From a virus: a DNA stretch of 47,199 nucleotides. Below are positions 565 through 46,848 of this stretch, one piece after another. The notes under the pieces are model-generated. The model did no database searches and was not told the origin of the DNA. It saw only the letters and a program-made list of their open reading frames with translations. Numbering within the stretch: the first letter of the stretch is position 1; each line of letters opens with the position of its first letter. The stretch is taken from positions 1-47,199 of IMG/VR virus record IMGVR_UViG_3300028610_000650; one strand, 5' to 3'. The position numbers were made by a program, and so were the translations under genes.

Positions 565-580
565 CCCCACCTCCGCGCAT

Positions 581-618
581 AAAAAGAACGCCCGGCCAGT
601 TTGCACCAGCGGGGCGTT
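581..618 (-). terminator. Terminator-like hairpin in leader of 358-564
   Basis: Read on the minus strand, AACGCCC (618-612) pairs with GGGCGTT (593-587) and is followed by C and then TTTTT before TATGCGCGGAGG and the start codon. This is a Rho-independent terminator shape placed between promoter and gene, that is, an attenuator position. An equivalent hairpin lies at 46686-46724. Confidence 0.7.
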
Positions 619-626
619 TCTATGTC

Positions 627-706
627 TGCCGCCTTGCGTAGTTGGGAACGACGAAACGCTCCCGGCGGGCAATTGAACATACTCAAATATCTATCTTCAC
701 TACGCA
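627..706 (-). ncRNA. Pseudoknotted leader RNA, copy 1
   Basis: Minus-strand RNA with stem P1 TGCGTAGT (706-699) pairing ACTACGCA (642-635). An internal hairpin GGGA...TCCC (663-644) has a TTTCGTC-containing loop. A pseudoknot pairs TGC(C)CGCC (671-664) with GGCGGCA (633-627). The copy at 46730-46813 has the same layout and the same loop motif but different, still complementary, stem sequences. P1 begins 8 bases after the -10 hexamer, so it is at the 5' end of the transcript. Likely a cis-regulatory RNA; the ligand or partner is unknown. Confidence 0.7.
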
Positions 707-714: not shown

Positions 715-742
715 ATTATATCAGTTCCTATCTATTTGTCAA
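715..742 (-). promoter_or_regulatory. Sigma70-like promoter for 358-564 unit
   Basis: On the minus strand TTGACA (742-737), a 16-base spacer and TATAAT (720-715), a consensus match in both hexamers. The next feature downstream is the structured leader. The promoter lies between the end of gene 757-966 and the leader, so it starts a new unit in the early region. Confidence 0.85.
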
Positions 743-1384: not shown

Positions 1385-1448
1385 GGGCAGGCCGAAGCCA
1401 CTATTAGCTTCAAGGAATTGCAACCTGCGATTATTCTTTCGCCTGCCC
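1385..1448 (-). promoter_or_regulatory. Long-range hairpin leader of gene 1184-1360
   Basis: On the minus strand GGGCAGGC (1448-1441) pairs perfectly with GCCTGCCC (1392-1385), enclosing a smaller hairpin GAAGC...GCTTC (1411-1394) next to the 3' strand. This matches the outer-stem-plus-adjacent-hairpin layout of the other leaders, but a second interleaved stem is not clear (a bulged GCGAAAG/CTTTTCGC pairing overlaps P1) and there is no U-tract. Confidence 0.55.
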
Positions 1449-1451
1449 ATT

Positions 1452-2070: not shown

Positions 2071-2082
2071 AATTCACTCCAT

Positions 2083-2163
2083 AAAAAAACCACCCAAAGG
2101 CCGAACCGCGAAGCAAGAACCTTTTGGGTGGTTGTCGTACTGCACTAACTTCTTATCGCGGTT
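2083..2163 (-). promoter_or_regulatory. Interleaved-stem attenuator leader of 1795-2070
   Basis: Minus strand. P1 AACCGCGA (2163-2156) pairs TCGCGGTT (2111-2104) and is extended by AAGAA (2154-2150) with TTCTT (2119-2115). Stem B ACCACCCAAA (2132-2123), inside the P1 loop, pairs TTTGGGTGGT (2098-2089) after P1 and runs into seven Ts. B alone is a perfect intrinsic terminator; P1 and B are either mutually exclusive or form a pseudoknot. I found no convincing promoter immediately upstream; the 2164-2371 interval holds no other feature I can support. Confidence 0.7.
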
Positions 2164-2371
2164 CATCATACAAGTGTCCAAAACCAGTATAATCCAGAAT
2201 GTGTATCGTACTGAAACAATTGGCGAACTCTACAGAGTATACCTTAACAAATATTTCGGGAAAGTCAAGGGGGTAGGCCAAATTTTCTTGAAAAAAGTTG
2301 AAAATCGTTTCTACCATGTCGTGAGCGGGGGTAAAATTGCCCAATCATTCAAGATACCGCAGGTAAGTTTC

Positions 2372-6681: not shown

Positions 6682-6748
6682 TGCAACATGCTATCGCGTA
6701 TGCCGCATTTATTCAGGAACGGGCAGGATTCGATACCTGCACGGCGCA

Positions 6749-6811
6749 GCTACTCATCGGCATTGTGAACCTCCTCGTCAGAAGGTTGGGTAGCACCAAT
6801 TACCACAATGC
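6749..6811 (-). promoter_or_regulatory. Leader-like RNA fold in 6607-6868 intergenic region
   Basis: Minus strand GCATTGTG (6811-6804) pairs CACAATGC (6767-6760). An inner hairpin AACCT...AGGTT (6787-6768) abuts the 3' strand, and GCTAC (6794-6790) could pair GTAGC (6753-6749) beyond P1. This is the layout of the other leaders, but the second stem has only five pairs and no promoter or U-tract is visible. The 6607-6868 interval otherwise holds a 15-codon frame starting at about 6764 with a good GAGGAGG, too short to call. Confidence 0.4.
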
Positions 6812-6868
6812 GTTGCCTCGTGAATGCGTCTACTGTTCCGCCACCATTCCCAAAATGTTGTCAAAGAG

Positions 6869-7556: not shown

Positions 7557-7976
7557 CTATGTGTGTTCGTGAATTTCGTGACATTTTCTACATAATGGGA
7601 TCACGTCGAAAATATGCTCCGGCCCATACCCGTTATGGTGATGATATCCCTGCGCCTGTTGTCCGCATTCGCATACGCAATCACTGGCCTTGGGTATTTT
7701 GCCAATCTTAACAAGATAACCTATTTTGCTTCTTATTCTAATTTTTGCACCATGCTTGATTCGCAATAGCTTTGCAGTCGCTCTGCCTTTTTCACTACGA
7801 GCATATTTCTGCTGAGACTTATGAATTATTATCAGTCCCTTTGGCGTTCGTCTGTAGTTGATATTGTATTGTGTAATGCATTTTATGCATATACTCCTAT
7901 GGTTATCCTTACTTCTTTTGTCTTTAGCATATTCAGCTAATGACTTGTTTGTATAGCACTGCGTGCAGGTTTTCAT
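7557..7976 (-). CDS. HNH endonuclease
   Basis: 139 codons from MKTCTQC at 7976, with TGGAG nine bases before. An N-terminal zinc knuckle (CTQC near residue 4, CIKC near 36) is followed by a basic helical region and then a C-terminal HNH core: CVCECGQQ, GYHHHNGYGPE, IPLCRKCHEIHEH. Such proteins are free-standing phage endonucleases, sometimes homing or packaging-associated. The frame stays open upstream to an ATG at 8084 through the leader RNA, but that extension overlaps the terminator stem and is probably not translated. Confidence 0.88.
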   Translation of the reverse strand: MKTCTQCYTNKSLAEYAKDKRSKDNHRSICIKCITQYNINYRRTPKGLIIIHKSQQKYARSEKGRATAKLLRIKHGAKIRIRSKIGYLVKIGKIPKASDCVCECGQQAQGYHHHNGYGPEHIFDVIPLCRKCHEIHEHT

Positions 7977-7991
7977 TGATACGTCTCCAAT

Positions 7992-8078
7992 AAAAAAACC
8001 GAACAGGTTGCTATCAGAGCGGACGGGTTGCGTCCAAGAACTGACCTGTTCGGCTGTGTTTTGAATCTCTCTGATAGC
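7992..8078 (-). promoter_or_regulatory. Interleaved-stem attenuator leader of HNH gene
   Basis: Minus strand. P1 GCTATCAGAG (8078-8069) pairs CTCTGATAGC (8019-8010), 10 bp perfect. Stem B CCGAACAGGT (8053-8044), inside P1, pairs ACCTGTTCGG (8008-7999) and runs into seven Ts (7998-7992), a full intrinsic terminator. A small hairpin GGACG...CGTCC (8035-8021) abuts the 3' strand of P1. P1 begins nine bases after the -10 box. Either a pseudoknot or a switch between two folds. Confidence 0.8.
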
Positions 8079-8087
8079 ATACATGGT

Positions 8088-8116
8088 ATTATAACCTATT
8101 TATTGGAGACTGTCAA
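8088..8116 (-). promoter_or_regulatory. Sigma70-like promoter of the HNH unit
   Basis: Minus strand TTGACA (8116-8111), a 17-base spacer, TATAAT (8093-8088); exact consensus hexamers and optimal spacing. Confidence 0.9.
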
Positions 8117-11104: not shown

Positions 11105-11187
11105 AAAAAAGCCGAAGCGGGTGTGTGCAGAACAGGGGAGTGTTCTCCCGCCCGGCCAGTAGTTGTGAATGTTTTTCGTTCTGCACA
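11105..11187 (-). promoter_or_regulatory. Interleaved-stem attenuator leader of early arm
   Basis: Minus strand P1 TGTGCAGAAC (11187-11178) pairs GTTCTGCACA (11133-11124), 10 bp perfect. Stem B GCCGggCGGG (11156-11147) lies inside P1 and pairs CCCGCttCGGC (11121-11111) beyond it, followed by six Ts. A hairpin GGGAG-aaca-CTCCC (11149-11136) abuts the P1 3' strand and shares its first bases with B. P1 starts seven bases after the -10 box. Same architecture as at 8.05 and 2.1 kb. Confidence 0.8.
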
Positions 11188-11194: not shown

Positions 11195-11223
11195 ACCATA
11201 CGCAATGCGAACGGAAAAGTCAA
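11195..11223 (-). promoter_or_regulatory. Early promoter of leftward arm
   Basis: Minus strand TTGACT (11223-11218), a 17-base spacer, TATGGT (11200-11195). It lies just downstream of the late-operon terminator and starts the csrA-containing transcription unit. Confidence 0.75.
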
Positions 11224-31722: not shown

Positions 31723-31906
31723 ATTCATTTTTAGCCTTCCAGCTTTTTATACCGTCAAGCACCATATAAACCGCTGCCACACCACCGGCAACATACGCTT
31801 TCGTCTCCGGCGGGATGTCCGGCGCCTGCGATAAGAATACCAGTATCGCGTACACAAGTCCAGAGCGTTTCGATAACACGCCTGATAAATCTATGTTCTT
31901 TTCCAT
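31721..31906 (-). CDS. Holin-like two-helix membrane protein
   Basis: 61 codons from ATG at 31906 (GAGGGG six bases before), overlapping the upstream stop. Two hydrophobic segments (SGLVYAILVFLSQ and AYVAGGVAAVYMVLDGI) joined by a short Pro-rich loop, and a charged C-terminus (KSWKAKNE). Size and topology match class II-type phage holins, which permeabilise the inner membrane at lysis. No adjacent endolysin was recognised, so the role is tentative. Confidence 0.65.
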   Translation of the reverse strand: MEKNIDLSGVLSKRSGLVYAILVFLSQAPDIPPETKAYVAGGVAAVYMVLDGIKSWKAKNE

Positions 31907-32325
31907 TACCAACCCCTCGGAGGTTCCGATTTCAATTTTATGCTGTAGAGAATTTCCCCTAACATCTCATAAAGACTATAACACGCCTTACTGAAACTAC
32001 TGTAATTGTTCTGCAACTTCCCGCCCCAGTTTTCTTCATATAAAGATTTCCATGAAGCTGCAACATCTTTGGCGGCGCTATGCCAGCGCGTATACGCTTT
32101 TATAATATTAGAATCGTCGCTGTCAATATACTTTACAAGTTTCTGGAGCCCCTTGCTGTCAATAGACCAGTCCACTAATTGCCAGTCACCGCGAATCCAC
32201 AGATATAACTCTCGAATATACTGTTCGCACAATTCGAGAATTTCTTCGTGTTCCCGGCACTTCCGGGCAAGGTCGCGTCCGGCACCAACTATCACAGCAT
32301 TTTTCATAAATTCACGCCTGTTCAT
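31906..32325 (-). CDS. Helical protein with Tat-like N-terminus
   Basis: 139 residues. The start MNRREFMKNAVIVGAG has the twin-arginine RRxFxK pattern and a short hydrophobic run, resembling a Tat signal, but the remainder is a charged helical protein (HEEILELCEQYIRELYLWI). It may be coincidental. The start overlaps the upstream gene; no ribosome site is evident, so coupling is likely. Function unknown. Confidence 0.65.
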   Translation of the reverse strand: MNRREFMKNAVIVGAGRDLARKCREHEEILELCEQYIRELYLWIRGDWQLVDWSIDSKGLQKLVKYIDSDDSNIIKAYTRWHSAAKDVAASWKSLYEENWGGKLQNNYSSFSKACYSLYEMLGEILYSIKLKSEPPRGW

Positions 32326-32476
32326 TTGGAGGGATTATCCCGCTTTGTTTTGTGTTATAATTTACATTATTATGAGTTTTCGCAAGATTGAAACTTATTT
32401 GTAGATTATCCTTTGGCCATGCGGCCTTGAGTAACTTGTTTGCATTTATCAGTGCTTTTTTCTGTTGAGGACTCAT
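32312..32476 (-). CDS. Small basic protein, unknown
   Basis: 54 codons from MSPQQKKALINANKLL at 32476, overlapping the upstream stop (ATGA). A basic helix followed by an Asn-rich tail. No family recognised. Part of a chain of overlapping small genes between portal and scaffold. Confidence 0.65.
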   Translation of the reverse strand: MSPQQKKALINANKLLKAAWPKDNLQISFNLAKTHNNVNYNTKQSGIIPPNEQA

Positions 32477-32670
32477 CTTTTCTTCACATGAATAACCGGT
32501 TGTCCTTTGTACATTTTTACTTTCCACGTCAAATCTTCATACTTGCAGTCGTATACTTTCATGGCGTGCGTCAACGTAGCAAGTAACGGCTGCTTTATGC
32601 TGTCCGGCATATTATCGCAAGACTCAGGCAATACGATAGATTCGTCAATTTCAAGTTGAAGAACCTTCAC
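32473..32670 (-). CDS. Small protein, paralogue of 32651-32869
   Basis: 65 codons from GTG at 32670 (AAAGGA nine bases before). The segment SIKQPLLATLTHAMKVYDC, then LTWKVKMYKGQPVIHVKKR, aligns in register with the neighbouring gene product (ELRQEMLAAMRDAAVKLNC, LRLQVCEKGGKPGFNIERI): a helix, a C residue, a W/R-K-V strand and a G-x-P turn. The two are tandem duplicates. Function unknown. Confidence 0.7.
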   Translation of the reverse strand: MKVLQLEIDESIVLPESCDNMPDSIKQPLLATLTHAMKVYDCKYEDLTWKVKMYKGQPVIHVKKR

Positions 32671-32869
32671 TATCGGGTATCCTTTCGATATTGAATCCGG
32701 GCTTTCCGCCTTTTTCACACACTTGAAGTCTCAATTGTTCGGGGTGACAGTTAAGCTTCACCGCCGCATCCCGCATGGCCGCTAACATTTCCTGTCTCAA
32801 CTCCGAGCCCAAGTTCTCTGTAGGACTGGACGGTAACAAAATTCTCGGTTGTTTATTTGGCTTTACCAC
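32651..32869 (-). CDS. Small protein, paralogue of 32473-32670
   Basis: 72 codons from GTG at 32869 (AAGGGGAAG upstream). Pro-rich N-terminus (PNKQPRILLPSSPTENLG), then the helix-Cys-strand-GKPGF module shared with the next gene. Overlaps both neighbours. Unknown role; perhaps a small subunit of the virion or a regulator of head assembly. Confidence 0.7.
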   Translation of the reverse strand: MVKPNKQPRILLPSSPTENLGSELRQEMLAAMRDAAVKLNCHPEQLRLQVCEKGGKPGFNIERIPDSEGSST

Positions 32870-32993
32870 GTTTCTTCCCCTTTGCAACTGACAGGGCTAT
32901 TGCCACCGCCTGTTTTCGCTTTCGACCCGTTCGCCGTAACTCACGAATATTGGCGGCGATTGCCTTTCTGGATTTACCCTTCTTGAGAGGCAC
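32853..32993 (-). CDS. Small basic phage protein (KKGKSRKAIAANI type)
   Basis: 46 codons from GTG at 32993, overlapping the upstream stop as TAGTG. PLKKGKSRKAIAANIREL and KQAVAIALSVAKGKK match a very common short phage protein found near portal and head genes, with no assigned function. Strongly basic, so it may contact DNA in the head. Confidence 0.75.
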   Translation of the reverse strand: MPLKKGKSRKAIAANIRELRRTGRKRKQAVAIALSVAKGKKRGKAK

Positions 32994-33295
32994 TATATTT
33001 TCACCATAGGCATTATCGCGCTTGCAACACCGTTCGCAAACGCATTAAATTGTTTATGAGTCATCACAAAAACAGATTCATCATCACTCGCTTCATATCG
33101 TACGTGTTGCTCGCAAGTTACCATTTCCATAACTTCGTGCATAAAGTTCTCGAATTTGCGTTCCGCTGTCTGTTCGTCACTCATACCAACAGTTATTTGT
33201 TGTTTCCCCGTCACACCACTGCCGCCCCATTTTTTGTCTTCCTCGACAATAGTGTATTGTTTGCCGCAAATTTGCATTGTGTTTGGCAGATTCAT
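32993..33295 (-). CDS. Metallopeptidase-like small protein
   Basis: 100 residues. N-terminal beta hairpins (KQYTIVEEDKKWGGSGVTG) then FENFMHEVMEMVTCEQHVRYE. The HExxE/H...H arrangement resembles the zinc-binding helix of minimal phage metalloprotease-like domains, but the canonical second His of HExxH is replaced by Glu. Either a degenerate relative or a binding protein. It overlaps the portal stop by four bases (ATGA), so it is made together with the portal. Confidence 0.65.
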   Translation of the reverse strand: MNLPNTMQICGKQYTIVEEDKKWGGSGVTGKQQITVGMSDEQTAERKFENFMHEVMEMVTCEQHVRYEASDDESVFVMTHKQFNAFANGVASAIMPMVKI

Positions 33296-35268
33296 TTAGT
33301 CCCTTTCGCTAAGGTATTTTGACTTTTCAAAACACTAACCAGTTTCACGAACCCATCAAAAGCCGCCTGATTCATTCCGGCCCTGTTCTTATTTATTTCA
33401 CTCATTGTCTTAGCGTTATCAAGAATGGCACTTGACCTCGCCTCTTGGGCATCGGCAATGTTCTCCTGAGCCTGAGATATCTGAACCGCCGTTAAACCTT
33501 CTTGCAGTTGAGCGTTACGCTGTTCCTGCTGCTGCGCCTTTTGCATAGCCTGCTGTTGTTTCTGTTGTGCCTGCTGGATTCCTTTCTTGGTCTGGTTCTT
33601 GAACTGCATCGGAGAGGCTTCAATCAGCATGTCAAGTGTAATAATCCCTTGAGTATCCTCCGGAAATTCCCGTTTTAGTTCTTTGAGCTCCTGATAGTAC
33701 ATATTCTGCTGCGAATCGGTAAGAAGTCCCTCGGTTGGATTGCAGTCGAACCTTGTCAAATCTTCCTCGTAAAAACCTTCTACCGGAGGCTGATTGAGTA
33801 TTTTCTGGACTCTCTGGGGATCGTAATTCAACTGAACTAATTGAACCTGCTTGCGCCCCACGTCTCTTTTAGAAGCCCTCAAGTCTTGAAACATCCATGC
33901 CTGCGCCGTTAATGCCTGCCCTGTCCTGTAAGCATGAAGGACGCCGGGGATGTCCTTATCGTCTGAGCCAAATATCTCCTGATTGAGCCCTCCAGCTTCC
34001 GTCTCAGCCTTGTCGGTTGCCTCAAGAGCGGCGAAAAGAGACTGGGGCACCTCAGACCCCGAAGTTTGCAGGAAAATCTGCTCCAGCGGCACTTCCTTGC
34101 CCGCCTCGTTCACTTGGAGCACAACGCCTTGCCCGGATTTATAAGCATCTTCTGGATTCAGTACAAGCTGGCTTTTTACAATACGAAGATTCTGTATCTG
34201 GCTCTCAATTATATCGTAAATCTGGTTGATTCTTCGGTTGAAAGCCCTCTGGGGGTCGCGCAAGCCCCTGACAAAACTCTGTAGTTTCAACTCGGTCCGG
34301 GGTTGTTCGGGGCACCACAAGCCATGCACCCATGTATAATTAAAGTCTCTTAATTTGGTAGGATTGTCGCCTTCCCACAGAAATTGATCGTCAAGAAGGA
34401 TTCTAAGCCTGATTTTTGGCCTGATATCCCTGAATTTAACTAAAACCGGGGTGTTGTTCTGGTCGCGGAGTTCGTCAAGTATCCTGATTGCTACCTTGTC
34501 GTCATTCTCAGCGAAATCACGCTTAAATTCATCGAAAGTCATTTTGACACCGGTTTGGCGATGCTGAACAACCGAAACTTCCTCGTTCTCCCTGTGCCAC
34601 CACTGCTCGAATAGTCGCTTTTCGGCCTTGTTCTGCATAGCAGGAGTGCCCTGAAATTCCCATCGGCTCGAAGTCACCAAAGGCTGTATATCTTCAATCT
34701 TTCCCGCCCTCGTGGGAACGAGTTCTTTCGCTTTCTCCGTGGAAATCCACTGTCCTGTAAAAATATCCTGACAGTCCGACAAATCGGGATTAGTTAAACC
34801 GTGATCTAACAGGAACTGGTTCCAGCCCAGGCGACCAAATTGAATCAAACCGTTCCTGTCACGCCATTGCTCTATCAAGTTGGAACCCTGAACCAAAGCA
34901 CCCCACTTAAACGCCTCGGAAAGCGCATCATATCCGCCGTGACGGCCCATAATCGACATCACCACGCCCGTATGCTGATTGCAGGCTTCGTCCTCTTTCT
35001 CCTCGAAAGCACCCTGTTGACCTATCTTGAGAATATGGCGGTTCCTTATCTCATAACCGTGTAAGAGATTGACTTGACGCCCTATCTTGTCGATTGTGTG
35101 TAGTATCCTGCCCTGCCTGTCTGCCGCCGCAGCTTCTTCGGCATCATGCTGGGCCTTGAGGAAATAATCCAGGTCCAACTCCGCCTGCTCCAGAAAAGGA
35201 CGCCACGCCGTTGCATTGATCTCGTAGGCATCGTGATATTCTGATACTGTACTGGCTTCATTAGCCAT
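33292..35268 (-). CDS. Portal protein, P22-type
   Basis: 658 residues, the usual length for P22-like portals. The N-terminal half includes LHGYEIRNRHILKIG, RLGWNQFLLDHGLTNPDLSDC and WISTEKAKELVP, a signature region of podovirus portals; the middle HGLWCPEQPRTELKLQSFVRGLRDPQRAFNRRI region (residues about 325-357) is the stem/clip area; the C-terminal 130 residues are a Gln-rich helical barrel (about 555-640). Forms the dodecameric ring through which DNA is packaged and ejected. The start overlaps the small gene upstream. Confidence 0.9.
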   Translation of the reverse strand: MANEASTVSEYHDAYEINATAWRPFLEQAELDLDYFLKAQHDAEEAAAADRQGRILHTIDKIGRQVNLLHGYEIRNRHILKIGQQGAFEEKEDEACNQHTGVVMSIMGRHGGYDALSEAFKWGALVQGSNLIEQWRDRNGLIQFGRLGWNQFLLDHGLTNPDLSDCQDIFTGQWISTEKAKELVPTRAGKIEDIQPLVTSSRWEFQGTPAMQNKAEKRLFEQWWHRENEEVSVVQHRQTGVKMTFDEFKRDFAENDDKVAIRILDELRDQNNTPVLVKFRDIRPKIRLRILLDDQFLWEGDNPTKLRDFNYTWVHGLWCPEQPRTELKLQSFVRGLRDPQRAFNRRINQIYDIIESQIQNLRIVKSQLVLNPEDAYKSGQGVVLQVNEAGKEVPLEQIFLQTSGSEVPQSLFAALEATDKAETEAGGLNQEIFGSDDKDIPGVLHAYRTGQALTAQAWMFQDLRASKRDVGRKQVQLVQLNYDPQRVQKILNQPPVEGFYEEDLTRFDCNPTEGLLTDSQQNMYYQELKELKREFPEDTQGIITLDMLIEASPMQFKNQTKKGIQQAQQKQQQAMQKAQQQEQRNAQLQEGLTAVQISQAQENIADAQEARSSAILDNAKTMSEINKNRAGMNQAAFDGFVKLVSVLKSQNTLAKGTK

Positions 35269-35440
35269 TATTTATCAACCCAAAAAAACACGGATCACCT
35301 AATTTAGTAGGCCCTGTAGGTCTCCAGAAGGGCTTATTCGTATATCCCATAGCATTGCACGTTGTCAAATCTGGTCGCCCCTTCCACCAAACTTCGTCTT
35401 TGTGGTGCCTGCATCTCTTGTGGCATTTGTTGTTAGCCAT
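35261..35440 (-). CDS. Cys/His-rich small protein next to portal
   Basis: 59 codons from 35440, with GGAGGG eight bases upstream, directly adjoining the previous stop. N-terminus NNKCHKRCRHHKDEVWWKG has CxxxC and paired His residues, then a later Cys, giving a possible zinc site. The C-terminal part is Pro/Gly-rich. Its stop overlaps the portal start. Unknown function; seen only as part of the terminase-portal gene chain. Confidence 0.7.
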   Translation of the reverse strand: MANNKCHKRCRHHKDEVWWKGRPDLTTCNAMGYTNKPFWRPTGPTKLGDPCFFGLINNG

Positions 35441-35599
35441 TTACCTAACCCTCCATGCAACCCATAACGTATGCCACGATAATATCTTGAATATCCACAT
35501 ATAGTCAAGAGACTTGCGTTTAGTCCGCCAAAACCAAACACGAAACTTTGGTTTGCCCGTATCTTTCCATGTCTTGATTTCGAGTCGCCCAATATTCAT
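35441..35599 (-). CDS. Basic aromatic 52-residue protein
   Basis: Starts at 35599, overlapping the upstream stop (ATGA) and ending next to the following start. Sequence MNIGRLEIKTWKDTGKPKF followed by RVWFWRTKRK and several Trp residues; strongly basic. No family recognised. Kept because it fits the operon spacing exactly. Confidence 0.6.
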   Translation of the reverse strand: MNIGRLEIKTWKDTGKPKFRVWFWRTKRKSLDYMWIFKILSWHTLWVAWRVR

Positions 35600-35742
35600 C
35601 CAACATCCCATACTACCATATCAATCAATGTCTCGCCACAATACTCGCACGACCTTCTCTTGTACTCCTCGCCTTGATAAGAATATTTGTTGCCTTCACA
35701 TTTAACATCTTTGCATGTTTTGGCTGGTACTCTTTGTCGCAT
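35596..35742 (-). CDS. Zinc-finger miniprotein after terminase
   Basis: 48 codons from MRQRVPAKTC at 35742 with AGGAGGG nine bases before. Contains CKDVKC and CEYCGE, a CxxxxC plus CxxC zinc-binding layout. The TerL stop is two bases upstream. Possibly a Com-like or terminase-associated small protein; this is inferred from fold and position only. Confidence 0.7.
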   Translation of the reverse strand: MRQRVPAKTCKDVKCEGNKYSYQGEEYKRRSCEYCGETLIDMVVWDVG

Positions 35743-35743
35743 T

Positions 35744-37306
35744 CTACCCAACCCTCCTGTACTTTTCGGACCAGTCCTGTATATCTTTATCGGACACACT
35801 GTTATTGTCTACCATGACATACAGCTCATCTTCGATTACAGTGCTCAGATACCTCATAGCGTCACTGTAGTGGCTTGCTGAGTCGTGGACCGGCTTCTCA
35901 GCGTACATACCGGATGCCTCTATCCACTCCCTCCTGTAGGACGTGAGGGCCTTAATCAGGGGCTGGCACTTCTCCGAGTCCATCCAGAGAGAGGGGAACA
36001 TATTCGTAACCCGTTCTATACCGTCCAGGACACTTAGCTCTCTTTTCAGTTTTGTAAAAATAATTCCCTGTTGTTTGGCGGTTTCATAGAGAGAAAGGCC
36101 TGTCCCCTGCTCTTCCTTGCTCACGTCCGCAGGACAGAAATACTTACCGTAATTGTACTTGAACCGGTCTTTCTTTGCATCCAGCATAGACTTATAGAAG
36201 GCCATACCACCCCGCGCATCATCTTTCTTATCGAGGCAGAAACAATCGATTATCCGCACTTGAAGATTGATTACTTGAAAGAATATCCACGGCGTATTTA
36301 CCATAATCCCTAAATCACACACCGTATGAACCGGGAACCGGGGGTTGTGAGGAACTACGGTTATCCTGCCGTCTTCCCTTGTTTCGCTTACCTCCTGGGC
36401 GTAATAGGAACCTTCGACCGCCGACATGAACAGTTCTTCAAGAGTAGATGGATGTTCTTTATAGATTAGATGCTTGAGCGTCTTTTTCTTCGCGGTGTAC
36501 CATGCCCGCTGCCCAGGGGTTAATATCGTCTTGTATATCCTTTCAATACCGTCGAAATAGTCATGCAGTTTGTCACTAATCTCAACATACTTCGGATCAG
36601 TAACATTGCTTTCTTTCTGGTGCCATGCGAAGAAATGCCTCCTATAGTCCATTGGGCCTAATTCCGCCCCACTCAGTTCCTTTTGCCCCGCCGCTTCACA
36701 CATTTCGGGAAAATCACCTATCGGGCCTTCCGCCGTTGCTTCGATTAAGATAAACCCCCCTGCGTGAACAGTCTCTAATGCCCCCGACTTAACCTCCTCA
36801 GCCTTCTTTGGGGCGTGGGTGCACATCCAGCCATATTCCGATACATGGAGAATCTGGAGCGTACCGGACCGCATAGACGTTCCAACATAAATACTTGAAT
36901 TGTTCGAGAACAGAAGTTCTTGAGCATCGTCTTTGATTAAAGTTATACACGACAGCAAATCTTTCGGCAGATTGTCGTAAGCATACCTGATCTTGTCCCT
37001 GAATATCTTCTTTGCGTCGGCAAGTTTATGAGCAATCAGGCCCGCGCGAATATTTGAGTTGAACAAACACGAATCCAGCATGAATACGCTGATAAGAGTC
37101 GTGATTCCATGCTGCCTGCTTTTGGGGATAATATTGTTCCACCACAAAGCAAAGTACAGAATCTTCTGCACGGCGTTCATTTTGAACAGGAACCGGTTGC
37201 CGTCCTCGTCAAGCTGGTAATACAGGTGATTCAATCGCCAGTATCTATTCCCCAGCTTCTTCGCTCTCTGTTGAACTTGGGAGTTTTCCTTTAGTGCTAC
37301 CATCAA
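35744..37306 (-). CDS. terL: Terminase large subunit
   Basis: About 520 residues. The N-terminal ATPase domain shows the Walker A variant PKSRQHGITT (61-70) and Walker B-like LQILHVSEYG (150-159). The C-terminal RNase-H-like nuclease has CDLGIMVNTPW (D331), an ADVSKEEQGTG segment and HYSDAMRYL near 490, the three acidic positions. It translocates DNA into the prohead and cuts concatemers. The start is a TTG at 37306 or the next ATG at 37303; both lie inside terS. Overlap with terS is about 60 bases. Confidence 0.93.
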   Translation of the reverse strand: MMVALKENSQVQQRAKKLGNRYWRLNHLYYQLDEDGNRFLFKMNAVQKILYFALWWNNIIPKSRQHGITTLISVFMLDSCLFNSNIRAGLIAHKLADAKKIFRDKIRYAYDNLPKDLLSCITLIKDDAQELLFSNNSSIYVGTSMRSGTLQILHVSEYGWMCTHAPKKAEEVKSGALETVHAGGFILIEATAEGPIGDFPEMCEAAGQKELSGAELGPMDYRRHFFAWHQKESNVTDPKYVEISDKLHDYFDGIERIYKTILTPGQRAWYTAKKKTLKHLIYKEHPSTLEELFMSAVEGSYYAQEVSETREDGRITVVPHNPRFPVHTVCDLGIMVNTPWIFFQVINLQVRIIDCFCLDKKDDARGGMAFYKSMLDAKKDRFKYNYGKYFCPADVSKEEQGTGLSLYETAKQQGIIFTKLKRELSVLDGIERVTNMFPSLWMDSEKCQPLIKALTSYRREWIEASGMYAEKPVHDSASHYSDAMRYLSTVIEDELYVMVDNNSVSDKDIQDWSEKYRRVG

Positions 37307-37682
37307 TCAAACCTAAAAGTGTCGCCGTATCTTTATCTACTGCAATTTCCAGTTTTCTGTTAATCCTCTGTTTTAGTTCATTATAATGTTTTACTGCACC
37401 GAGCTTTACAGGCAATTCAGCATTTTGTGTCATCAAAAAACTAAGCTGTTTATCTGCATAGACCTCACTAAACCCTGTTTCGGACATAATCTTGTTGATA
37501 TAGGTTAATATCCGAACGTCTTTTAACAACCGTTTGGCACATGCTCCCGCCGAATTATATTTTTCAGCAGGTATATTATATGCCTCAATGTACGATTGCA
37601 CACCATTACCGAAGAACTCTCTATCGGTTGCGTAAAACTTACAAAACAGCTTCTGTTCTGGATTTAAGGCTCTCGCTGCTAT
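37245..37682 (-). CDS. terS: Terminase small subunit, non-canonical start
   Basis: The frame ending at 37245 has its first standard start (GTG) at 37601, but the reading frame upstream of it encodes LNPEQKLFCKFYATDREFFG and NGVQSYIEAYN, the conserved N-terminal helix-turn-helix of small terminases. The likely start is therefore ATA at 37682, seven bases after AAGGGGG; ATT at 37688 is too close to that site. The total would be about 145 residues. The C-terminus is coiled-coil and acidic. It recognises phage DNA for packaging. A +1 frameshift from the upstream gene at the G5 run is an alternative. Confidence 0.82.
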   Translation of the reverse strand: MAARALNPEQKLFCKFYATDREFFGNGVQSYIEAYNIPAEKYNSAGACAKRLLKDVRILTYINKIMSETGFSEVYADKQLSFLMTQNAELPVKLGAVKHYNELKQRINRKLEIAVDKDTATLLGLIDGSTKGKLPSSTESEEAGE

Positions 37683-37683
37683 A

Positions 37684-38601
37684 TCAATACCCCCTTGCCA
37701 ATAACTTACAATCGCTATCCGCTGTAGTGGGAACCGCTACTATTACATCGGCACCCAATAAGTCCACATTTGTCACGGCTACCCTGTTATTACCAGCCGG
37801 GCTCTTTGTCGTAAAGCCGCTGGGAGCGTCCCAATCCGATTCTGTCACACTGAGGGTGTCTGCTATCTCGAACGTCAATAAATCGCTTGCGGCATGTGTG
37901 TATGAGTTTGCACTTACCGTAGTTCCCGCCCTTGTAATCGAGATTGTCTCGGAATTAGTGAAAGTACCTGATTTTGTCGTATATTGGATGGTTCCCGCCG
38001 CATCACCATCCGCCCATGCACCACCCGACAGCGCTTTAGACACTACAACCGCCGTCTCTGCACTACTGTTACCTGTTGCGATATCACCCGCAAGAGGCTC
38101 AAAAGGACCGCCACTGGTAAATGTGATTTGATGATGAATTGAGGACTGAGTGCCTATTACCGCTGTCAAGGTGCCGACAAGGGCTAATTCACAATCAGCC
38201 GTAGTGGAGTCAATGTCCCTGTTCCCGTCTCCTAAAGTACCGGCGTATATATTATAGACTACATCTTCAGTGTCCCCACCTTCAGCTAAAATCCTAAATC
38301 TGATAATATTCCAGTCACGGGGGATGTCGAATATAGATATTTCACCCTTGTCGATACCGGAGCCCGCTCCGTCTATTTGAACTTTGGTAAATTGATAAGT
38401 CCGCTCCGTAACCGCCAAATCGTTCGGTTCGGTGCCCGCCGCCGTTGTTTCGTCGATTACAACCCATTCAGGCCTTGCCGTCTGTACGTTGCCGGGGTCA
38501 ACCCTTGTGCCTGTCAGGTCGAGAGGGATGATCTGAGTGTTGGCGTAAACTACAACTGCTACTATTAAGATAGTTATTAGAATGATTAGCTTTTTTCGCA
38601 T
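37684..38601 (-). CDS. Exported-looking structural protein, unknown
   Basis: 305 residues. Signal peptide MRKKLIILITILIVAVVVYA. The mature part is beta-rich: PEWVVIDETTAAGTEPND, TYQFTKVQIDGAGSG, DWNIIRFRILAEGGDTEDVVYNIYAG, TIQYTTKSGTFTNSETISI. This reads like a jelly-roll or fibre-cap protein. It is encoded immediately before terS, with overlap, an unusual position for a fibre gene. Confidence 0.72.
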   Translation of the reverse strand: MRKKLIILITILIVAVVVYANTQIIPLDLTGTRVDPGNVQTARPEWVVIDETTAAGTEPNDLAVTERTYQFTKVQIDGAGSGIDKGEISIFDIPRDWNIIRFRILAEGGDTEDVVYNIYAGTLGDGNRDIDSTTADCELALVGTLTAVIGTQSSIHHQITFTSGGPFEPLAGDIATGNSSAETAVVVSKALSGGAWADGDAAGTIQYTTKSGTFTNSETISITRAGTTVSANSYTHAASDLLTFEIADTLSVTESDWDAPSGFTTKSPAGNNRVAVTNVDLLGADVIVAVPTTADSDCKLLARGY

Positions 38602-38611
38602 AATATATCCT

Positions 38612-39931
38612 TTATCTGTTTCGTCTACCTCTTAATCGTCCGCTTGTACTGCCTTCACCACTACTGAAATTCATATCGCCCGGTGTTGTCGGAGGGCCTG
38701 CGTCACCTTGCGGGGTGTATGCTCCTGATTCACTTGGATCGGTTCTTTTCCAGTAACTCGCACCGTTTGCTCCTCCTAATGTAGTGGATAGAATCCATGA
38801 ATCCACGCCGTTCCAGTAGATAAACCAGAAGGACGAACCACCCGCGCCGTCCGGTAGCTGTGAGGTGCTCTTGAAATAATTATGTCCATTATGGCAACAT
38901 AATATCTCCCATGCACCGCCGGGGCCTGTTTCCTGGTTAACCCCTAAATAATCCACCGCACCGCCGCCACCGGTGAAGTATTGCACACCTGAAACCCCTT
39001 GTAGTGGGTCCACCATCGACACACTGTCAAGAGTACAGGTATCGCCGATTGTGCTGTTGCCGATAGAAAAGGTTATGCCTGTCCCGCTTGAGGCCGATTC
39101 GACATAAAAAGTATAAGAGCCGTTAGAATAGACTTTCGAGCCAGGCTGCACCCCGTCAACTTCATTCAAGGTTATGTTGAGAAATGTATCCGCCTGGTTA
39201 AACGAGATTCCCGACACTACAACCGACACTTTATAGAGTTTACCGGTAATGAGGTTGGAAATGGGCTGTCTAACTAACTGGGTACTGTCATTGCTCGTTG
39301 CAAGCCATGAAGCGTCTGTGTTACTGGTCAAGTCCCATTCATTGACAAATAGCCAGGGCGTAGACAAAAACTCACGGAAAAACACATTATCCCAAGTAAA
39401 ATCAATAGCAGCGGCGGGAGTGGCCCTATCAATGGAGATTGTCGTAGTTGCTGCATCGCTGGTTTCATTTACTGAATAATGCCGTGACCCCGCCGTAGGA
39501 TTTACTATATCCTTATCCCCCCCTAAATAACCAATGTCACCCTCGTCCGATCCTACATTAGCCCAGAAGTCAAAATCAACATGATAGCGCGTACTCCCTA
39601 CTATCTCATTGCCGGTGTAAACAATATTAACAGTGTTGCCGCCGCCGCCGCTTCCAAACATATTAACAGCACCGCTTCCGGCACCGCCCTGAAACTCTCC
39701 CGCTCCCACTTGAGAGGCTTCCCCATCCCCAAACTTATTTTCTTGCCAACTGTCCGGTGTTCCTCCTGTCCATGCTGTAAAATCCCCGTTTGTAATCAGA
39801 TTTGGAAAGTCCGTATTCAGCGCAAAACCACCATACTGCACAAGTTCGGTTTGGGCAAAAATGCTTGTTACTGATGTGATAATACAGATAATGACAAATA
39901 ATGCTTTTTTGGTCTCAAACAACCAACTCAT
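38612..39931 (-). CDS. Carbohydrate-binding-module-like fibre protein
   Basis: 439 codons from MSWLFETKKALFVIICIITS at 39931 (AAAAGGG seven bases upstream); a longer frame from 39979 would hide the signal peptide. After cleavage near FAQ, the protein has NLITNGDFTAWTGGTPDSW, the hallmark start of CBM-like jelly rolls, then a second module (NEWDLTSNTDASWLATSN ... GTGITFSIGNSTIGDTC), a WEILCCHNGHNYFKS domain and a Ser/Gly/Arg tail. First gene of the late operon, so abundantly made. Likely binds surface glycans. Confidence 0.78.
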   Translation of the reverse strand: MSWLFETKKALFVIICIITSVTSIFAQTELVQYGGFALNTDFPNLITNGDFTAWTGGTPDSWQENKFGDGEASQVGAGEFQGGAGSGAVNMFGSGGGGNTVNIVYTGNEIVGSTRYHVDFDFWANVGSDEGDIGYLGGDKDIVNPTAGSRHYSVNETSDAATTTISIDRATPAAAIDFTWDNVFFREFLSTPWLFVNEWDLTSNTDASWLATSNDSTQLVRQPISNLITGKLYKVSVVVSGISFNQADTFLNITLNEVDGVQPGSKVYSNGSYTFYVESASSGTGITFSIGNSTIGDTCTLDSVSMVDPLQGVSGVQYFTGGGGAVDYLGVNQETGPGGAWEILCCHNGHNYFKSTSQLPDGAGGSSFWFIYWNGVDSWILSTTLGGANGASYWKRTDPSESGAYTPQGDAGPPTTPGDMNFSSGEGSTSGRLRGRRNR

Positions 39932-39994
39932 ATTGCTACCCTTTTTTGTCTTGTCTGGATTTGTTTGCGCGTTTGTCATGGTTTATTTACAGGT

Positions 39995-40023
39995 AGTATA
40001 CGTTACTGACGGTAGGATTGCAA
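39995..40023 (-). promoter_or_regulatory. Late leftward promoter
   Basis: Minus strand TTGCAA (40023-40018), a 17-base spacer, TATACT (40000-39995). It drives the late structural operon. The -35 hexamer is itself the palindrome TTGCAA, one of several copies in this region. Confidence 0.7.
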
Positions 40024-40095
40024 GATAAATCTTTTTTATTTATTTTTGACGTGTAACTGCTTGCTTTTACTGCACTTACGATTGTCTAACTATTT

Positions 40096-40114
40096 TTGCA
40101 ATTGCATAATGCAA
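40096..40114 (+). promoter_or_regulatory. Operator-like inverted repeat over rightward -35
   Basis: TTGCAA (40096-40101) is followed by the perfect inverted repeat TTGCAT-A-ATGCAA (40102-40114), whose left arm is the -35 hexamer. A protein bound here would block the rightward promoter. Further TTGCAA copies lie at 40018, 40142 and 40185. Confidence 0.6.
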
Positions 40115-40130
40115 GAGGCGCGGGTATAAT
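40102..40130 (+). promoter_or_regulatory. Rightward promoter of plus-strand operon
   Basis: TTGCAT (40102-40107), a 17-base spacer, TATAAT (40125-40130). Expected transcript start near 40137, immediately before the attenuator leader. Confidence 0.85.
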
Positions 40131-40140
40131 TTAAGTATGG

Positions 40141-40213
40141 CTTGCAACCTTCCAAATTTGATTATTAGACTCGTTCGGAACTTCTTGCAAGTCTGTTTCG
40201 GGCGGGTCTTTTT
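40141..40213 (+). promoter_or_regulatory. Interleaved-stem attenuator leader of plus operon
   Basis: P1 CTTGCAA (40141-40147) pairs TTGCAAG (40185-40191). Stem B GACTCGTTCG (40168-40177), inside P1, pairs CGGGCGGGTC (40199-40208) with wobbles and runs into TTTTT. This is the same order as in the minus-strand leaders, ten bases after the -10 box, here on the opposite strand. Confidence 0.65.
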
Positions 40214-40229
40214 CTTTTGAGGTGATATT

Positions 40230-40478
40230 ATGGAACCAATTAGACTAAAGGCTAATTATGGATACTGGCGCACTAACCACTATCCAATCGGCGGCGATTT
40301 CAGACGTGCGAGCGTGCACGGTGAAATTATAACCCGTATTATTCGAGATATCGACCCACCGTACAAAAACTGTGACATCGAGGTAGAGCTCGCCGACAAA
40401 ACAACAGCCGCAATCAACTCACAAAACACAACTGCAACTTGCATTGATTGCCTTAGTAAACTAAGAGCCAACGTTTAA
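40230..40478 (+). CDS. First gene of plus operon, unknown
   Basis: 82 codons (MEPIRLKANYGYWRTNHYP), GAGGTG upstream of the ATG. A beta-rich N-terminal half (EIITRIIRDIDPPYKNCDIEVELADK) and a Cys pair at the C-terminus (TCIDC). Not recognised. As the first gene after the rightward promoter it could encode the operon's regulator, but no DNA-binding motif is visible. Confidence 0.7.
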   Translation: MEPIRLKANYGYWRTNHYPIGGDFRRASVHGEIITRIIRDIDPPYKNCDIEVELADKTTAAINSQNTTATCIDCLSKLRANV

Positions 40479-40484
40479 CCTCCC

Positions 40485-40523
40485 GCCCCGTCACGGTTCG
40501 CCGGTTCGACTCCGGCGCGGGGC
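40485..40523 (+). ncRNA. tRNA acceptor/T-arm-like minihelix
   Basis: GCCCCGT (40485-40491) pairs GCGGGGC (40517-40523) to give a seven-bp acceptor-like stem. GCCGG-TTCGACT-CCGGC (40500-40516) is a perfect five-bp T-arm with a consensus TTCRANY loop placed directly against its 3' strand. An eight-base linker replaces the D and anticodon arms. This is the geometry of a tRNA top-half minihelix. It lies between the first two plus-operon genes. No CCA follows. Confidence 0.65.
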
Positions 40524-40556
40524 TTGTAAACTATAACTTTTTTAAGGGGTAAAGAA

Positions 40557-40775
40557 ATGACAAGAAGCGAGCATTTACAGTGGTGCAAAGATAGGGCAAT
40601 GGAGTATGTCAACAATGGAGATATCCCGAACGGCATTAAATCTATGATGTCTGATATGACGAAACATCAAGAAACATGCGACCACATGGGCCTCAGTTTA
40701 GGCGTGATGTTGCTAATGGGAAGCCAGTTAGAAACAGAGAAAAGCGCAACTGACTGGATTCTCGGCTTTAATTGA
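40557..40775 (+). CDS. Conserved small phage protein (EHLQWCKDRA type)
   Basis: 72 codons, AAGGGG upstream. MTRSEHLQWCKDRAMEYV, MMSDMTKHQET, then SLGVMLLMGSQL and ATDWILGFN are the blocks of a very common small phage protein that I recognise as a family of unknown function. All-helical prediction. Confidence 0.88.
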   Translation: MTRSEHLQWCKDRAMEYVNNGDIPNGIKSMMSDMTKHQETCDHMGLSLGVMLLMGSQLETEKSATDWILGFN

Positions 40776-40839
40776 AGCCTTCACTCCCTCTCCTGTGTTT
40801 GCGGGGGCGGGCGTAAATGTTTTATTAAGGAGTCTTGTT

Positions 40840-41040
40840 ATGTTGGATGTTTATTTGATGACTATTTGCGGCGACAAGGCAGCAACTATGGGAATGCGAT
40901 GCTCGGCGATATATAATTGGGCAAGGCACCATTCCGTTGCCTGGAATGTAATCGTAACAGCTCAACAAGACGTTTTACTTATTGCTGTCTTAAATGACAT
41001 TACCTTAGACGCCGCCAAAACACTGCTTGAAAACGCTTGA
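40840..41040 (+). CDS. Small helical protein, unknown
   Basis: 66 codons from MLDVYLMTICG (AAGGAG before). Hydrophobic/helical with MGMRCSAIYNWARHHSVAWN. Its leader GCGTAAATGTTTTATTAAGGAGTCTTGTT is near-identical (quoted here only as positions 40813-40839) to that of the next gene. No family known. Confidence 0.65.
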   Translation: MLDVYLMTICGDKAATMGMRCSAIYNWARHHSVAWNVIVTAQQDVLLIAVLNDITLDAAKTLLENA

Positions 41041-41078
41041 TTTGCGTAAATGTTTTATCATTTGAAAGGGGTCTTGTT

Positions 41079-41267
41079 ATGACCGTTAGGAATGACTGGG
41101 TTGGACATTTACGGCGATACCCCTTAAAAGAATTACGCCGCCGACAAAATCTCACTGCTCAACAAATTGTTATCGCGTACAGGGCCAATAATATAAGGAC
41201 CTTAACTGATTTACAAAACATGGCGGATAGCTTGACAGAAGCTGTCTATTTGAACGAATTTACTTAG
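41079..41267 (+). CDS. Small basic protein, unknown
   Basis: 62 codons from MTVRNDWVGHLRRYP, with AAAGGGG upstream. Contains LKELRRRQNLTAQQIVIAYR, a helix-turn-helix-like stretch, so DNA binding is possible. Preceded by the same untranslated motif as the gene before it. Function unknown; it is the best candidate in this operon for a transcriptional regulator. Confidence 0.65.
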   Translation: MTVRNDWVGHLRRYPLKELRRRQNLTAQQIVIAYRANNIRTLTDLQNMADSLTEAVYLNEFT

Positions 41268-41291
41268 TCTTTATTTGAAAGGGGTTAGATA

Positions 41292-41612
41292 ATGAATTAT
41301 GCAAAAGTGTTAATGGGTGAACATGCCCTATCGCTTCCATTTAATTTCGTGCGACAAAAAGCGGATGAACAGCGTGGGTTAATATTGGGGCAAGAAACAG
41401 GCCGAGCATTGGCTTTTGGTTCCGATATGACCCATGTATTCGTAATGGGCGATATGGTATTCAGGCCCCATCTTGCTATTGAAAGCAACCACTGCAAGGG
41501 CATGGGGGCGGCAGCAATTATAACATCGTCGTCGTTTTGTGACGTTGATGAATGGATTCGTAATGGTAACATATTACTTAATCATTATGTATCTCCCTCA
41601 GAGCAGCTTTAG
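41292..41612 (+). CDS. 106-residue protein, unknown
   Basis: MNYAKVLMGEHALSLPFNF, then RQKADEQRGLILGQETGRAL, HVFVMGDMVFRPHLAIESNHC and a C-terminal segment with CDVDEWIRNG. Alpha/beta pattern with no catalytic signature. AAAGGGG precedes the start. Middle of the plus operon. Confidence 0.7.
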   Translation: MNYAKVLMGEHALSLPFNFVRQKADEQRGLILGQETGRALAFGSDMTHVFVMGDMVFRPHLAIESNHCKGMGAAAIITSSSFCDVDEWIRNGNILLNHYVSPSEQL

Positions 41613-41637
41613 TCGCCCTGAACTTGTAAAATAACAC

Positions 41638-41661
41638 CCCGCATTATACGTTTAGTGCGGG
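41638..41661 (+). promoter_or_regulatory. Intercistronic hairpin in plus operon
   Basis: CCCGCA (41638-41643) pairs TGCGGG (41656-41661). It is followed by CTAACGTCAAGGG and a T-run, but the run is 13 bases away, so it is a weak terminator at best. Confidence 0.45.
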
Positions 41662-41698
41662 CTAACGTCAAGGGTTTTTATTGTTTAAGGGGTTAATT

Positions 41699-41989
41699 AT
41701 GCAGTTTGAAATAAAACCGTCGGATTACAATACAAAACGCAGCTTCATGGACACGATTTGGCAGAACTCAGAACGCGAAACAATCGCCCGCAATATTGTT
41801 ATCATTCAAGGTGACGACTTCGCGCCCTTCACTTTCGATGAATATGTCAAGCTCTGTGGCCATGCCAGTGCTCCCGGTGATGAATGGGTAGTTGAAGCTC
41901 TTGCCGATGAGGGTTATCTCGACAGAAGCGGAGAGACATTTATGGTCAACCTCAATTTTCTTGGCGCAATCGAAAAATATCGCAACTAA
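41699..41989 (+). CDS. 96-residue protein, unknown
   Basis: MQFEIKPSDYNTKRSFMDT with AAGGGG upstream. Contains RNIVIIQGDDFAPFTFDEYVKLCG and WVVEALADEGYLDRSGETFMV, the latter like a winged-helix beta wing, so this may be a small wHTH-type protein. No family name assigned. Confidence 0.7.
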   Translation: MQFEIKPSDYNTKRSFMDTIWQNSERETIARNIVIIQGDDFAPFTFDEYVKLCGHASAPGDEWVVEALADEGYLDRSGETFMVNLNFLGAIEKYRN

Positions 41990-41995
41990 CCCCTG

Positions 41996-42031
41996 CACAT
42001 CCTGCGCCGCCCGGTTAGGGCGTGGGGTGTG
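41996..42031 (+). promoter_or_regulatory. Two-part hairpin before gene 42052-42225
   Basis: CACATCC pairs GGGTGTG-like bases at 42025-42031, with an inner CGCCC-GGTTA-GGGCG (42008-42022) against its 3' side. An outer stem plus adjacent inner hairpin, as in the minihelix at 40485. Confidence 0.45.
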
Positions 42032-42051
42032 TATTTTAAGGAGGTAGAATT

Positions 42052-42225
42052 ATGTCCCCTGATAAAAAGAAACTTGTTTGCGGGCACAAAATAACACAGT
42101 ATTATTGGAGCGGCAAAGATGTTGTATATCTTGACAACCGTGCCGTGCCTGACAAATATGATACGATCACGCCCGACACAATCGAGGATGTTATCGCAAG
42201 AATGGTTGTAGGTAGAACTGAATAA
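42052..42225 (+). CDS. 57-residue protein, unknown
   Basis: ATG at 42052 with AAGGAGG, an ideal ribosome site. MSPDKKKLVCGHKITQYYW, GKDVVYLDNRAV, then TPDTIEDVIARMV. A short alpha/beta domain, not recognised. Confidence 0.75.
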   Translation: MSPDKKKLVCGHKITQYYWSGKDVVYLDNRAVPDKYDTITPDTIEDVIARMVVGRTE

Positions 42226-42249
42226 GTTTCTATTAACTTTCAAAAGACC

Positions 42250-42275
42250 GCCCCGATTCTAACCGAATGAGGGGC
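42250..42275 (+). promoter_or_regulatory. Hairpin before holin-like gene
   Basis: GCCCC (42250-42254) pairs GGGGC (42271-42275), with an inner ATTC/GAAT. It sits just before AAGGAG and the gene at 42296 and has no U-tract, so it is more likely a stability or spacing element than a terminator. Confidence 0.4.
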
Positions 42276-42295
42276 AAGAGTCAAGGAGAATTGTT

Positions 42296-42454: not shown

Positions 42455-42458
42455 AACC

Positions 42459-43955: not shown

Positions 43956-43982
43956 TAGTACTACTCCTGAAACGGACATTCG

Positions 43983-44725: not shown

Positions 44726-44755
44726 GTCTTTGCTCCTGCCTGTATGAACTATACC

Positions 44756-45236: not shown

Positions 45237-45263
45237 TATTCTGTCCTTTCAATAACTGACGAA

Positions 45264-46685: not shown

Positions 46686-46724
46686 AAAAAATGGCGCTCC
46701 GGCCCGTTAAGGCGGGAAACGCCA
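46686..46724 (-). terminator. Terminator-like hairpin in leader of 46076-46669
   Basis: Minus strand TGGCG (46724-46720, read with its flank) pairs CGCCA (46696-46692), with an inner CCCG/CGGG, followed by TTTTTTATGCGCGGAGG. Equivalent to 581-618, including the identical TATGCGCGGAGG that leads into the ribosome site. Confidence 0.7.
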
Positions 46725-46729
46725 ATATC

Positions 46730-46813
46730 TGCTCGCATACATGGTTGTGGGAGACGAAACCCCCACGCGAGGCAATTAAACTAAACGGATTATTCCTTAT
46801 CTTCACCATGTAT
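46730..46813 (-). ncRNA. Pseudoknotted leader RNA, copy 2
   Basis: Minus strand P1 ATACATGGT (46813-46805) pairs ACCATGTAT (46745-46737). The hairpin GTGGGG...TCCCAC (46766-46747) has the loop GTTTCGTC. The pseudoknot is TGC(C)TCGC (46774-46767) with GCGAGCA (46736-46730), including the same bulged C as copy 1. Every stem differs in sequence from copy 1 but stays paired. Confidence 0.72.
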
Positions 46814-46820: not shown

Positions 46821-46848
46821 ATTATATCATATCACGCTCGTTTGTCAA
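46821..46848 (-). promoter_or_regulatory. Sigma70-like promoter of 46076-46669 unit
   Basis: Minus strand TTGACA (46848-46843), a 16-base spacer, TATAAT (46826-46821), identical in design to the promoter at 715-742. Confidence 0.88.

Follow-up and report, generated by a model that had tools for sequence, protein, structure and literature searches.

Interleaved stems join an intrinsic terminator to the start of promoter-proximal leader ORFs in an uncultured tailed phage

The window, the whole stretch of DNA analysed here, comprises 47,199 bp and is a virus record from an uncultured tailed phage (G000). Its terminase is <60% identical to every record in the named-phage collection, and the region from 7.5 to 11.7 kb gave no DNA match among named phages. 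Relatives were retrieved from viral contigs via the terminase and are labelled G003/G004, G005, G007, G009, G012 and G013, with G008, G010 and G011 being near-copies of G009. A contig from another metagenome (G001) is identical to the window over 14,586 bp (31829-46414), indicating that the phage has been recovered more than once.

Direct reading of the 8.05, 11.15, 2.1 and 40.15 kb loci confirmed what a sequence-only reading had described there: two stems, P1 and B, are interleaved in the order P1 5', B 5', P1 3', B 3', and a U-tract follows B (Table 1). The interleaved order is kept at 0.6 and 46.75 kb, where, as had also been noted, a separate terminator lies behind the pseudoknot. P1 had been placed closely behind a -10 box, and it starts 7-8 nt past this box at 8.05, 11.15, 40.15, 0.6 and 46.75 kb, whereas the -10 and -35 elements at 2.1 kb are weak; all promoters and transcription start sites are predictions. 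At 8.05 kb, a 13-nt loop separates P1 5' from B 5', 24 nt containing a 5-bp hairpin precede P1 3', and the U-tract after B 3' reads TTTTTTT. The small hairpin described after B 5' and before P1 3' can be read clearly at 8.05 (GGACG/CGTCC), 0.6 and 46.75 kb; its counterpart at 11.15 kb (GGGAG/CTCCC) competes with the end of B 5', and no such hairpin lies between these arms at 2.1 and 40.15 kb. Eight loci had been proposed as members, of which these six stand; the 1.4 kb locus forms a nested hairpin across a start codon, and the 6.75 kb locus a tRNA-like fold.

Table 1 Features of the leaders and reference genes in the 47,199-bp window (promoters and transcription start sites, TSS, are predicted).
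Locus (kb)	Feature	Position	Strand	Remark
	Terminase gene	35.7-37.3 kb
	Portal gene	33.3-35.3 kb
8.05	Promoter TTGACA-N17-TATAAT (12/12)	8088..8116	-
8.05	Leader ORF, 35 codons, MLSERFKTQPNRSVLGRNPSALIATCSVFLLETYQ, then stop	7973..8080	-	AUG = predicted TSS; stop/next ATG overlap (ATGA)
8.05	Second ATG	8084	-	Frame fused to endonuclease gene
8.05	P1 5' arm TGCTATCAGAG	8069..8079	-	Begins at T of AUG
8.05	B 5' arm AGCCGAACAGGT	8044..8055	-
8.05	Small hairpin GGACG-CAACC-CGTCC	8021..8035	-
8.05	P1 3' arm CTCTGATAGCA	8009..8019	-
8.05	B 3' arm ACCTGTTCGG and U-tract	7992..8008	-	0 nt from P1 3'
11.15	Promoter TTGACT-N17-TATGGT (9/12)	11195..11223	-
11.15	Leader ORF, 32 codons	11090..11188	-	AUG = predicted TSS; TAATG overlap with next gene
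11.15	P1 (11187-11177 with 11134-11124)	11124..11187	-
11.15	B (11156-11147 with 11121-11111, internal loop) and U-tract	11105..11156	-
40.15	Promoter TTGCAT-N17-TATAAT (9/12)	40102..40130	+
40.15	Leader ORF, 27 codons	40137..40220	+	AUG = predicted TSS
40.15	P1 (40139-40147 with 40185-40193)	40139..40193	+
40.15	B (40167-40181 with 40195-40209) and U-rich tail	40167..40214	+
2.1	Leader ORF MMNRDKK...GGFFME, then stop	2074..2169	-	Next gene 3 nt past stop; weak promoter
2.1	P1 (2165-2156 with 2111-2102)	2102..2165	-	Begins at second AUG
2.1	B (2133-2123 with 2098-2088) and U-tract	2083..2133	-
0.6	Promoter (12/12)	715..742	-
0.6	Leader ORF, 48 codons	561..707	-	AUG = predicted TSS; ATGA overlap with next gene
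0.6	P1 (706-699 with 642-635)	635..706	-
0.6	B, bulged C (672-664 with 633-626)	626..672	-
0.6	Hairpin H, 7 bp, loop TTTCGT	644..663	-
0.6	Separate terminator	580..618	-
46.75	Promoter (12/12)	46821..46848	-
46.75	Leader ORF, 47 codons	46666..46809	-	ATGA overlap with next gene
46.75	P1 (46812-46805 with 46745-46738)	46738..46812	-	AUG inside
46.75	B, bulged C (46775-46767 with 46736-46729)	46729..46775	-
46.75	Hairpin H, loop TTTCGT	46747..46766	-
46.75	Separate terminator	46686..46723	-

The most important difference from the earlier description is a feature that it had missed, namely that the leaders are short ORFs beginning at the 5' end and crossing the terminator. Each of the ten leaders tested has an AUG-started ORF that is open past the terminator. 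The AUG lies 6-16 nt past the -10 box outside two cases: 8.05 kb has two AUGs, 3 and 7 nt past the box, and the G003 leader has its AUG 37 nt past the box, behind a Shine-Dalgarno site. In shuffled sequence, the chance of such an ORF is 2-6% per leader (AUG <=12 nt from the -10), ~4% at 2.1 kb (<=20 nt) and 14% at the G003 leader at 30 kb (<=45 nt). The AUG coincides with the predicted transcription start at four loci of the window (Table 1), and it overlaps the stop of the upstream gene in G005. Stop/next-start overlaps (ATGA, TAATG or TTGA) occur at 0.6, 46.75, 8.05 and 11.15 kb as well as in G013 and at G003 14773. Base 2 or 3 of an AUG is the first base of the P1 5' arm in seven of the first nine members, against 4.7% of null hits, and in the remaining ones the arm contains or abuts the AUG. 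The leader peptides themselves show no conservation between members, so that only the act of translation can matter; we dropped selection on the peptide sequence for the same reason.

In a relative, at G003 14773-14650 (-), a 12/12 promoter is followed by an AUG 11 nt past the -10 and a 32-codon ORF whose stop overlaps a TTG; this ORF passes through a plain terminator without P1, indicating that the ORF-through-terminator part can stand alone. The leader on the reverse strand of G007 at 1990 has a 16-bp P1 with a 2-nt bulge and the AUG within. At G007 597, also on the reverse strand, P1 begins at the predicted +1 and the frame is open, yet there is no AUG at the predicted 5' end. The capture of the extreme 5' end by P1 in most members, the AUG-less G007 597 included, would suit a terminated product that serves as a stable small RNA, a regulator or decoy with its 5' end in P1 and the terminator at its 3' end, read-through merely feeding the next gene. 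Such an RNA, however, would have no common sequence to recognise and no need for ORFs that continue across the terminator and in many cases overlap the following start codon; we regard it as distinctly unlikely.

Interleaved stems in a loose form give dozens of matches per strand, so that interleaving alone is uninformative. Whether shuffled sequence yields such stems equally often, as the sequence-only reading had asked, therefore depends on the form: the loose one is common by chance and the strong one did not appear in shuffles of this phage family. In three scans, whose thresholds were fixed after the first loci had been seen and whose exact enrichment ratios should not be over-read, scan A (promoter-like site, U-tract and summed stem energy <= -36 kcal/mol) counted 7 sites across nine records and an average of 0.00 per set across 16 local dinucleotide-preserving shuffles, with no excess over their own shuffle in ~2.6 Mb of other phage and bacterial loci (2 vs 2); scan B (AUG and open frame required, energy <= -40) found 5 sites in 349 kb, 0 in eight shuffles and 0 in 2.5 Mb of controls; and scan C (L1 10-35, L2 <=30 and L3 0-4 nt with a U-tract, <= -36, with no promoter or AUG condition) found 10 distinct sites in 305 kb of the phage family, compared with none in either the five shuffles or 376 kb of more distant phages and with 2 in 2.5 Mb of control loci from phages and bacteria. 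Scan C recovered the 8.05, 2.1 and 40.15 kb loci of the window and added sites in G003, G005, G007 (two), G009 and G013 and a doubtful one in G012. Neither ten more distant records nor ~150 loci from phages and bacteria had the strong form above chance, no strong promoter with an ATG behind it turned up when these ten records were searched by pattern, and a search for relatives of G013 brought nothing new. Enrichment of the strong form is thus confined to this phage family.

The 0.6 and 46.75 kb leaders are alignable paralogues. All 23 pairs of P1, B and the inner hairpin are kept in both, with nine two-sided compensations between them, three per helix, and the bulged C in B is conserved; sliding the partners by 1-3 columns left 0-1 two-sided compensations. 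The compensation in two interleaved helices indicates that both are selected as RNA structure in this single pair of paralogues. Homologues of these two leaders in viral contigs amounted to two chance matches. The other leaders have no alignable relatives, and their evidence is therefore enrichment and geometry. The covariation that had been proposed as a check was found in the 0.6/46.75 pair, and the leaders are not one homologous RNA family, which deprives the suggested eight-locus covariance model of meaning; a pseudoknot cannot be encoded in such a model in any case. Related phages carry the same design before unrelated genes, without sequence homology between the leaders.

The pseudoknot topology that had been suggested is supported by this covariation and by geometry. 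In eight of nine members as first drawn, L1 is 13-29, L2 3-24 and L3, the distance from P1 3' to B 3', 0-3 nt; G009 has L3 = 0 with a longer P1 (18-19 pairs including G-U). L1 13-30, L2 <=24 and L3 <=3 are found jointly in 2.2% of null hits. Ordinary terminators with chance pairing are a highly improbable account of the leaders: loose interleaved stems are common and small ORFs across U-tracts are easily found, but the shuffles and 2.5 Mb of control DNA, the two-helix covariation, and an AUG register and geometry far from the null all speak against it. We also rejected attC-like or REP-like DNA elements, the U-tract and ORF being strand-specific, and considered and dropped a type I toxin-antitoxin.

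A spacing of 0-3 nt between P1 3' and B 3' is what an end-to-end stacked pseudoknot would require, and a mere exclusion of the stems would give no reason for it; the geometry therefore favours a coexisting pseudoknot. A rough estimate from stacking energies and a fixed penalty of 9.6 kcal/mol favours the pseudoknot over the nested optimum by 5-16 kcal/mol. Nested folds make P1 and B mutually exclusive at several loci, and P1 is predicted to pair with a probability of 0.91-0.98 before B 3' has been transcribed; formed in this order, P1 could be a hindrance rather than a help to termination. These two predictions would suit P1 as an antiterminator that forms first and keeps B 5' unpaired, so that unhindered RNA reads through and an occupied 5' end (by an idle ribosome, a protein or an antisense RNA) frees B for termination. 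Exclusion, however, needs neither the tight P1 3'/B 3' spacing nor the long L1, both of which fit coexistence, and by estimate neither nested fold is as stable as the pseudoknot. We consider this antiterminator role of P1 unlikely.

The genes behind the leaders are varied. HNH endonuclease genes (PF01844) lie downstream of the G013 and G007 597 leaders, and an endonuclease-family gene (PHROG matches), without close relatives in viral contigs, lies downstream of the 8.05 kb leader. A relative of phrog_419 follows the 2.1 kb leader and phrog_4657 the 46.75 kb leader, both of unknown function, and small proteins lacking any match follow the remaining leaders. The device therefore does not belong to any single gene family. 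The unrelated downstream genes are a point against a riboswitch, or a pseudoknot bound by a phage protein, controlling termination, as are loops and stems without conserved bases between members outside the 0.6/46.75 pair. Rfam covariance models, which gave no match in the window and one chance lncRNA match in the leader loci, agree with the earlier statement that no known class fits. Despite the riboswitch-like layout of a pseudoknot with a terminator, we find this explanation quite improbable.

At G003 2419 (+), a 12/12 promoter precedes a Cys-rich gene resembling the endonuclease downstream of the 8.05 kb leader. Its leader forms a nested hairpin without a terminator, indicating that this endonuclease-like gene need not carry the device. 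The device is missing at this promoter and also at the 11/12 promoter 2372 (+). Of the phage-wide attenuation that had been envisaged, an attenuator after phage promoters is still the best reading, and its placement at each early promoter was too strong.

The anatomy of the ORFs, as read from sequence, points to translation gating and not to a riboswitch or a put-like antiterminator RNA. We lean, with slightly better than even confidence, towards a translation-gated transcription attenuator whose intrinsic terminator forms one pseudoknot with a lock on the start codon. To the structure, enrichment, 0.6/46.75 covariation, AUG register, read-through ORF and pseudoknot-compatible geometry, all established computationally, this attenuator adds steps that we infer: B would terminate in vivo, the ORFs would be translated, translation would suppress B, and the signal would be ribosome availability or timing.

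In such an attenuator, the promoter would give an mRNA with its AUG at or very near the 5' end, and this AUG, being the first to emerge, would have the longest possible time for ribosome loading. If a ribosome starts before the polymerase reaches the leader end, P1 would be blocked, the loaded ribosome would trail the polymerase through the terminator strand so that termination fails, and it would then arrive at the next start codon through the ATGA-type overlap. If no ribosome is loaded in time, the P1 3' arm would capture the start codon, and with the start codon sealed by P1, the adjacent B and U-tract would end transcription. The released RNA would be a sealed pseudoknot with its stop-less ORF closed to translation. 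At 0.6 and 46.75 kb, lock and terminator are two distinct elements. We also conjecture that the leaders stop transcripts initiated upstream, in which the AUG is internal and without a ribosome site, and pass those from the local promoter.

Ribosomes are known to suppress intrinsic terminators, and pyrBI works in this way (PMC4824070, PMC5021804). Terminators in the first ~100 bp of a coding region, however, are usually not suppressed unless RNA polymerase pauses (PMC4824070). This rule counts against gating, and pausing would be needed for early terminators; the leader terminators end ~80-135 nt from the -10. G007 597, without a 5' AUG, and the doubtful G012 count against translation gating as well.

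Among known systems, pyrBI (pyrL) of E. coli resembles the leaders in that a leader ORF contains the intrinsic terminator. The ribosome-binding site of pyrL is a conventional one, and pausing there is UTP-sensitive. In the phage leaders, by contrast, the AUG usually sits at the 5' end or close to it, the stem over the start codon interleaves with the terminator, and many unrelated phage genes have the design in front of them. Of the pyrBI-type features, the leader ORF through an intrinsic terminator is present in 10/10 leaders, one of them in a relative without P1, and a GC-rich terminator stem with a U-tract is present as well, as a separate hairpin at 0.6 and 46.75 kb. In pyrBI, close coupling of translation and transcription suppresses termination (PMC5021804, PMC4824070).

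The trp and his leader-peptide attenuators share with the phage leaders a short leader ORF and alternative helices that decide on termination. The phage segments, however, pair 1:3 and 2:4, as in a pseudoknot, as opposed to the 1:2, 2:3 and 3:4 of the trp type; the phage ORF runs through the terminator, and the terminator loop holds the partner of the start codon. Runs of trp-type control codons are absent from the leader peptides. In rpsO/S15 and repY-repZ, a pseudoknot touching the start codon, or translation of a leader ORF, controls expression, and these systems target translation by means of a protein or antisense RNA. Unlike the phage leaders, their pseudoknots are not known to have an intrinsic terminator inside.

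The put RNAs of HK022 are likewise promoter-proximal structured leaders acting on elongation or termination, and they act on downstream terminators by binding RNA polymerase (PMC9378689). The phage structure differs in that it contains the terminator and lies inside an ORF; two adjacent stem-loops suppressing downstream termination, as in put, were not found in the leaders, where the stems are interleaved with the terminator inside. We rate the device as working like a translation-coupled attenuator in which the pseudoknot lock on the start codon is the new part.

The open-access literature on leaderless leader-ORF attenuators and pseudoknot terminators in phages yielded no description of this arrangement, in line with the earlier impression. 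The broader proposal, to which we would give a little less than an even chance, is a new RNA control device: a terminator pseudoknotted with its own 5' end and start codon, which would end transcription and switch off translation together, as an interchangeable, sequence-independent module at many promoters of one phage family that is read by ribosome loading. If so, whether many promoters lead to expression would hinge directly on ribosomes loading within the first seconds of transcription, and a fail-safe would keep ribosomes from starting on truncated, stop-less RNAs. The device would also be among the rare regulatory RNAs that keep their topology but not their sequence and that are invisible to homology-based RNA discovery. 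The leaders would then offer a compact module for studying leaderless initiation against RNA folding and termination.

Several further structures were observed in the window. In the 0.6 kb leader (611-661, transcript of the - strand), GGAGCGTTTC could form a 10-bp helix with the separate terminator's 5' side, GAAACGCCCC; this helix, a possible antiterminator, would compete with the inner hairpin. At 1400-1451 (-), a nested 8-9 bp stem (GGGCAGGC...GCCTGCCC) lies over the start codon of a short ORF, MGRRKNNRR..., which stops at the next ATG; this simpler start-codon hairpin is possibly a relative of the device. The tRNA-like RNA at 6714-6851 (-), called neither by ARAGORN nor by Rfam, is 138 nt long and has a 7-8 bp acceptor-like stem, a 5-bp T-arm-like stem and a D-arm-like sequence resembling that of tRNA-Leu, with a long structured insert replacing the anticodon arm. 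Behind it lie a long, nearly perfect hairpin (6681-6642) and a gene with a Shine-Dalgarno site.
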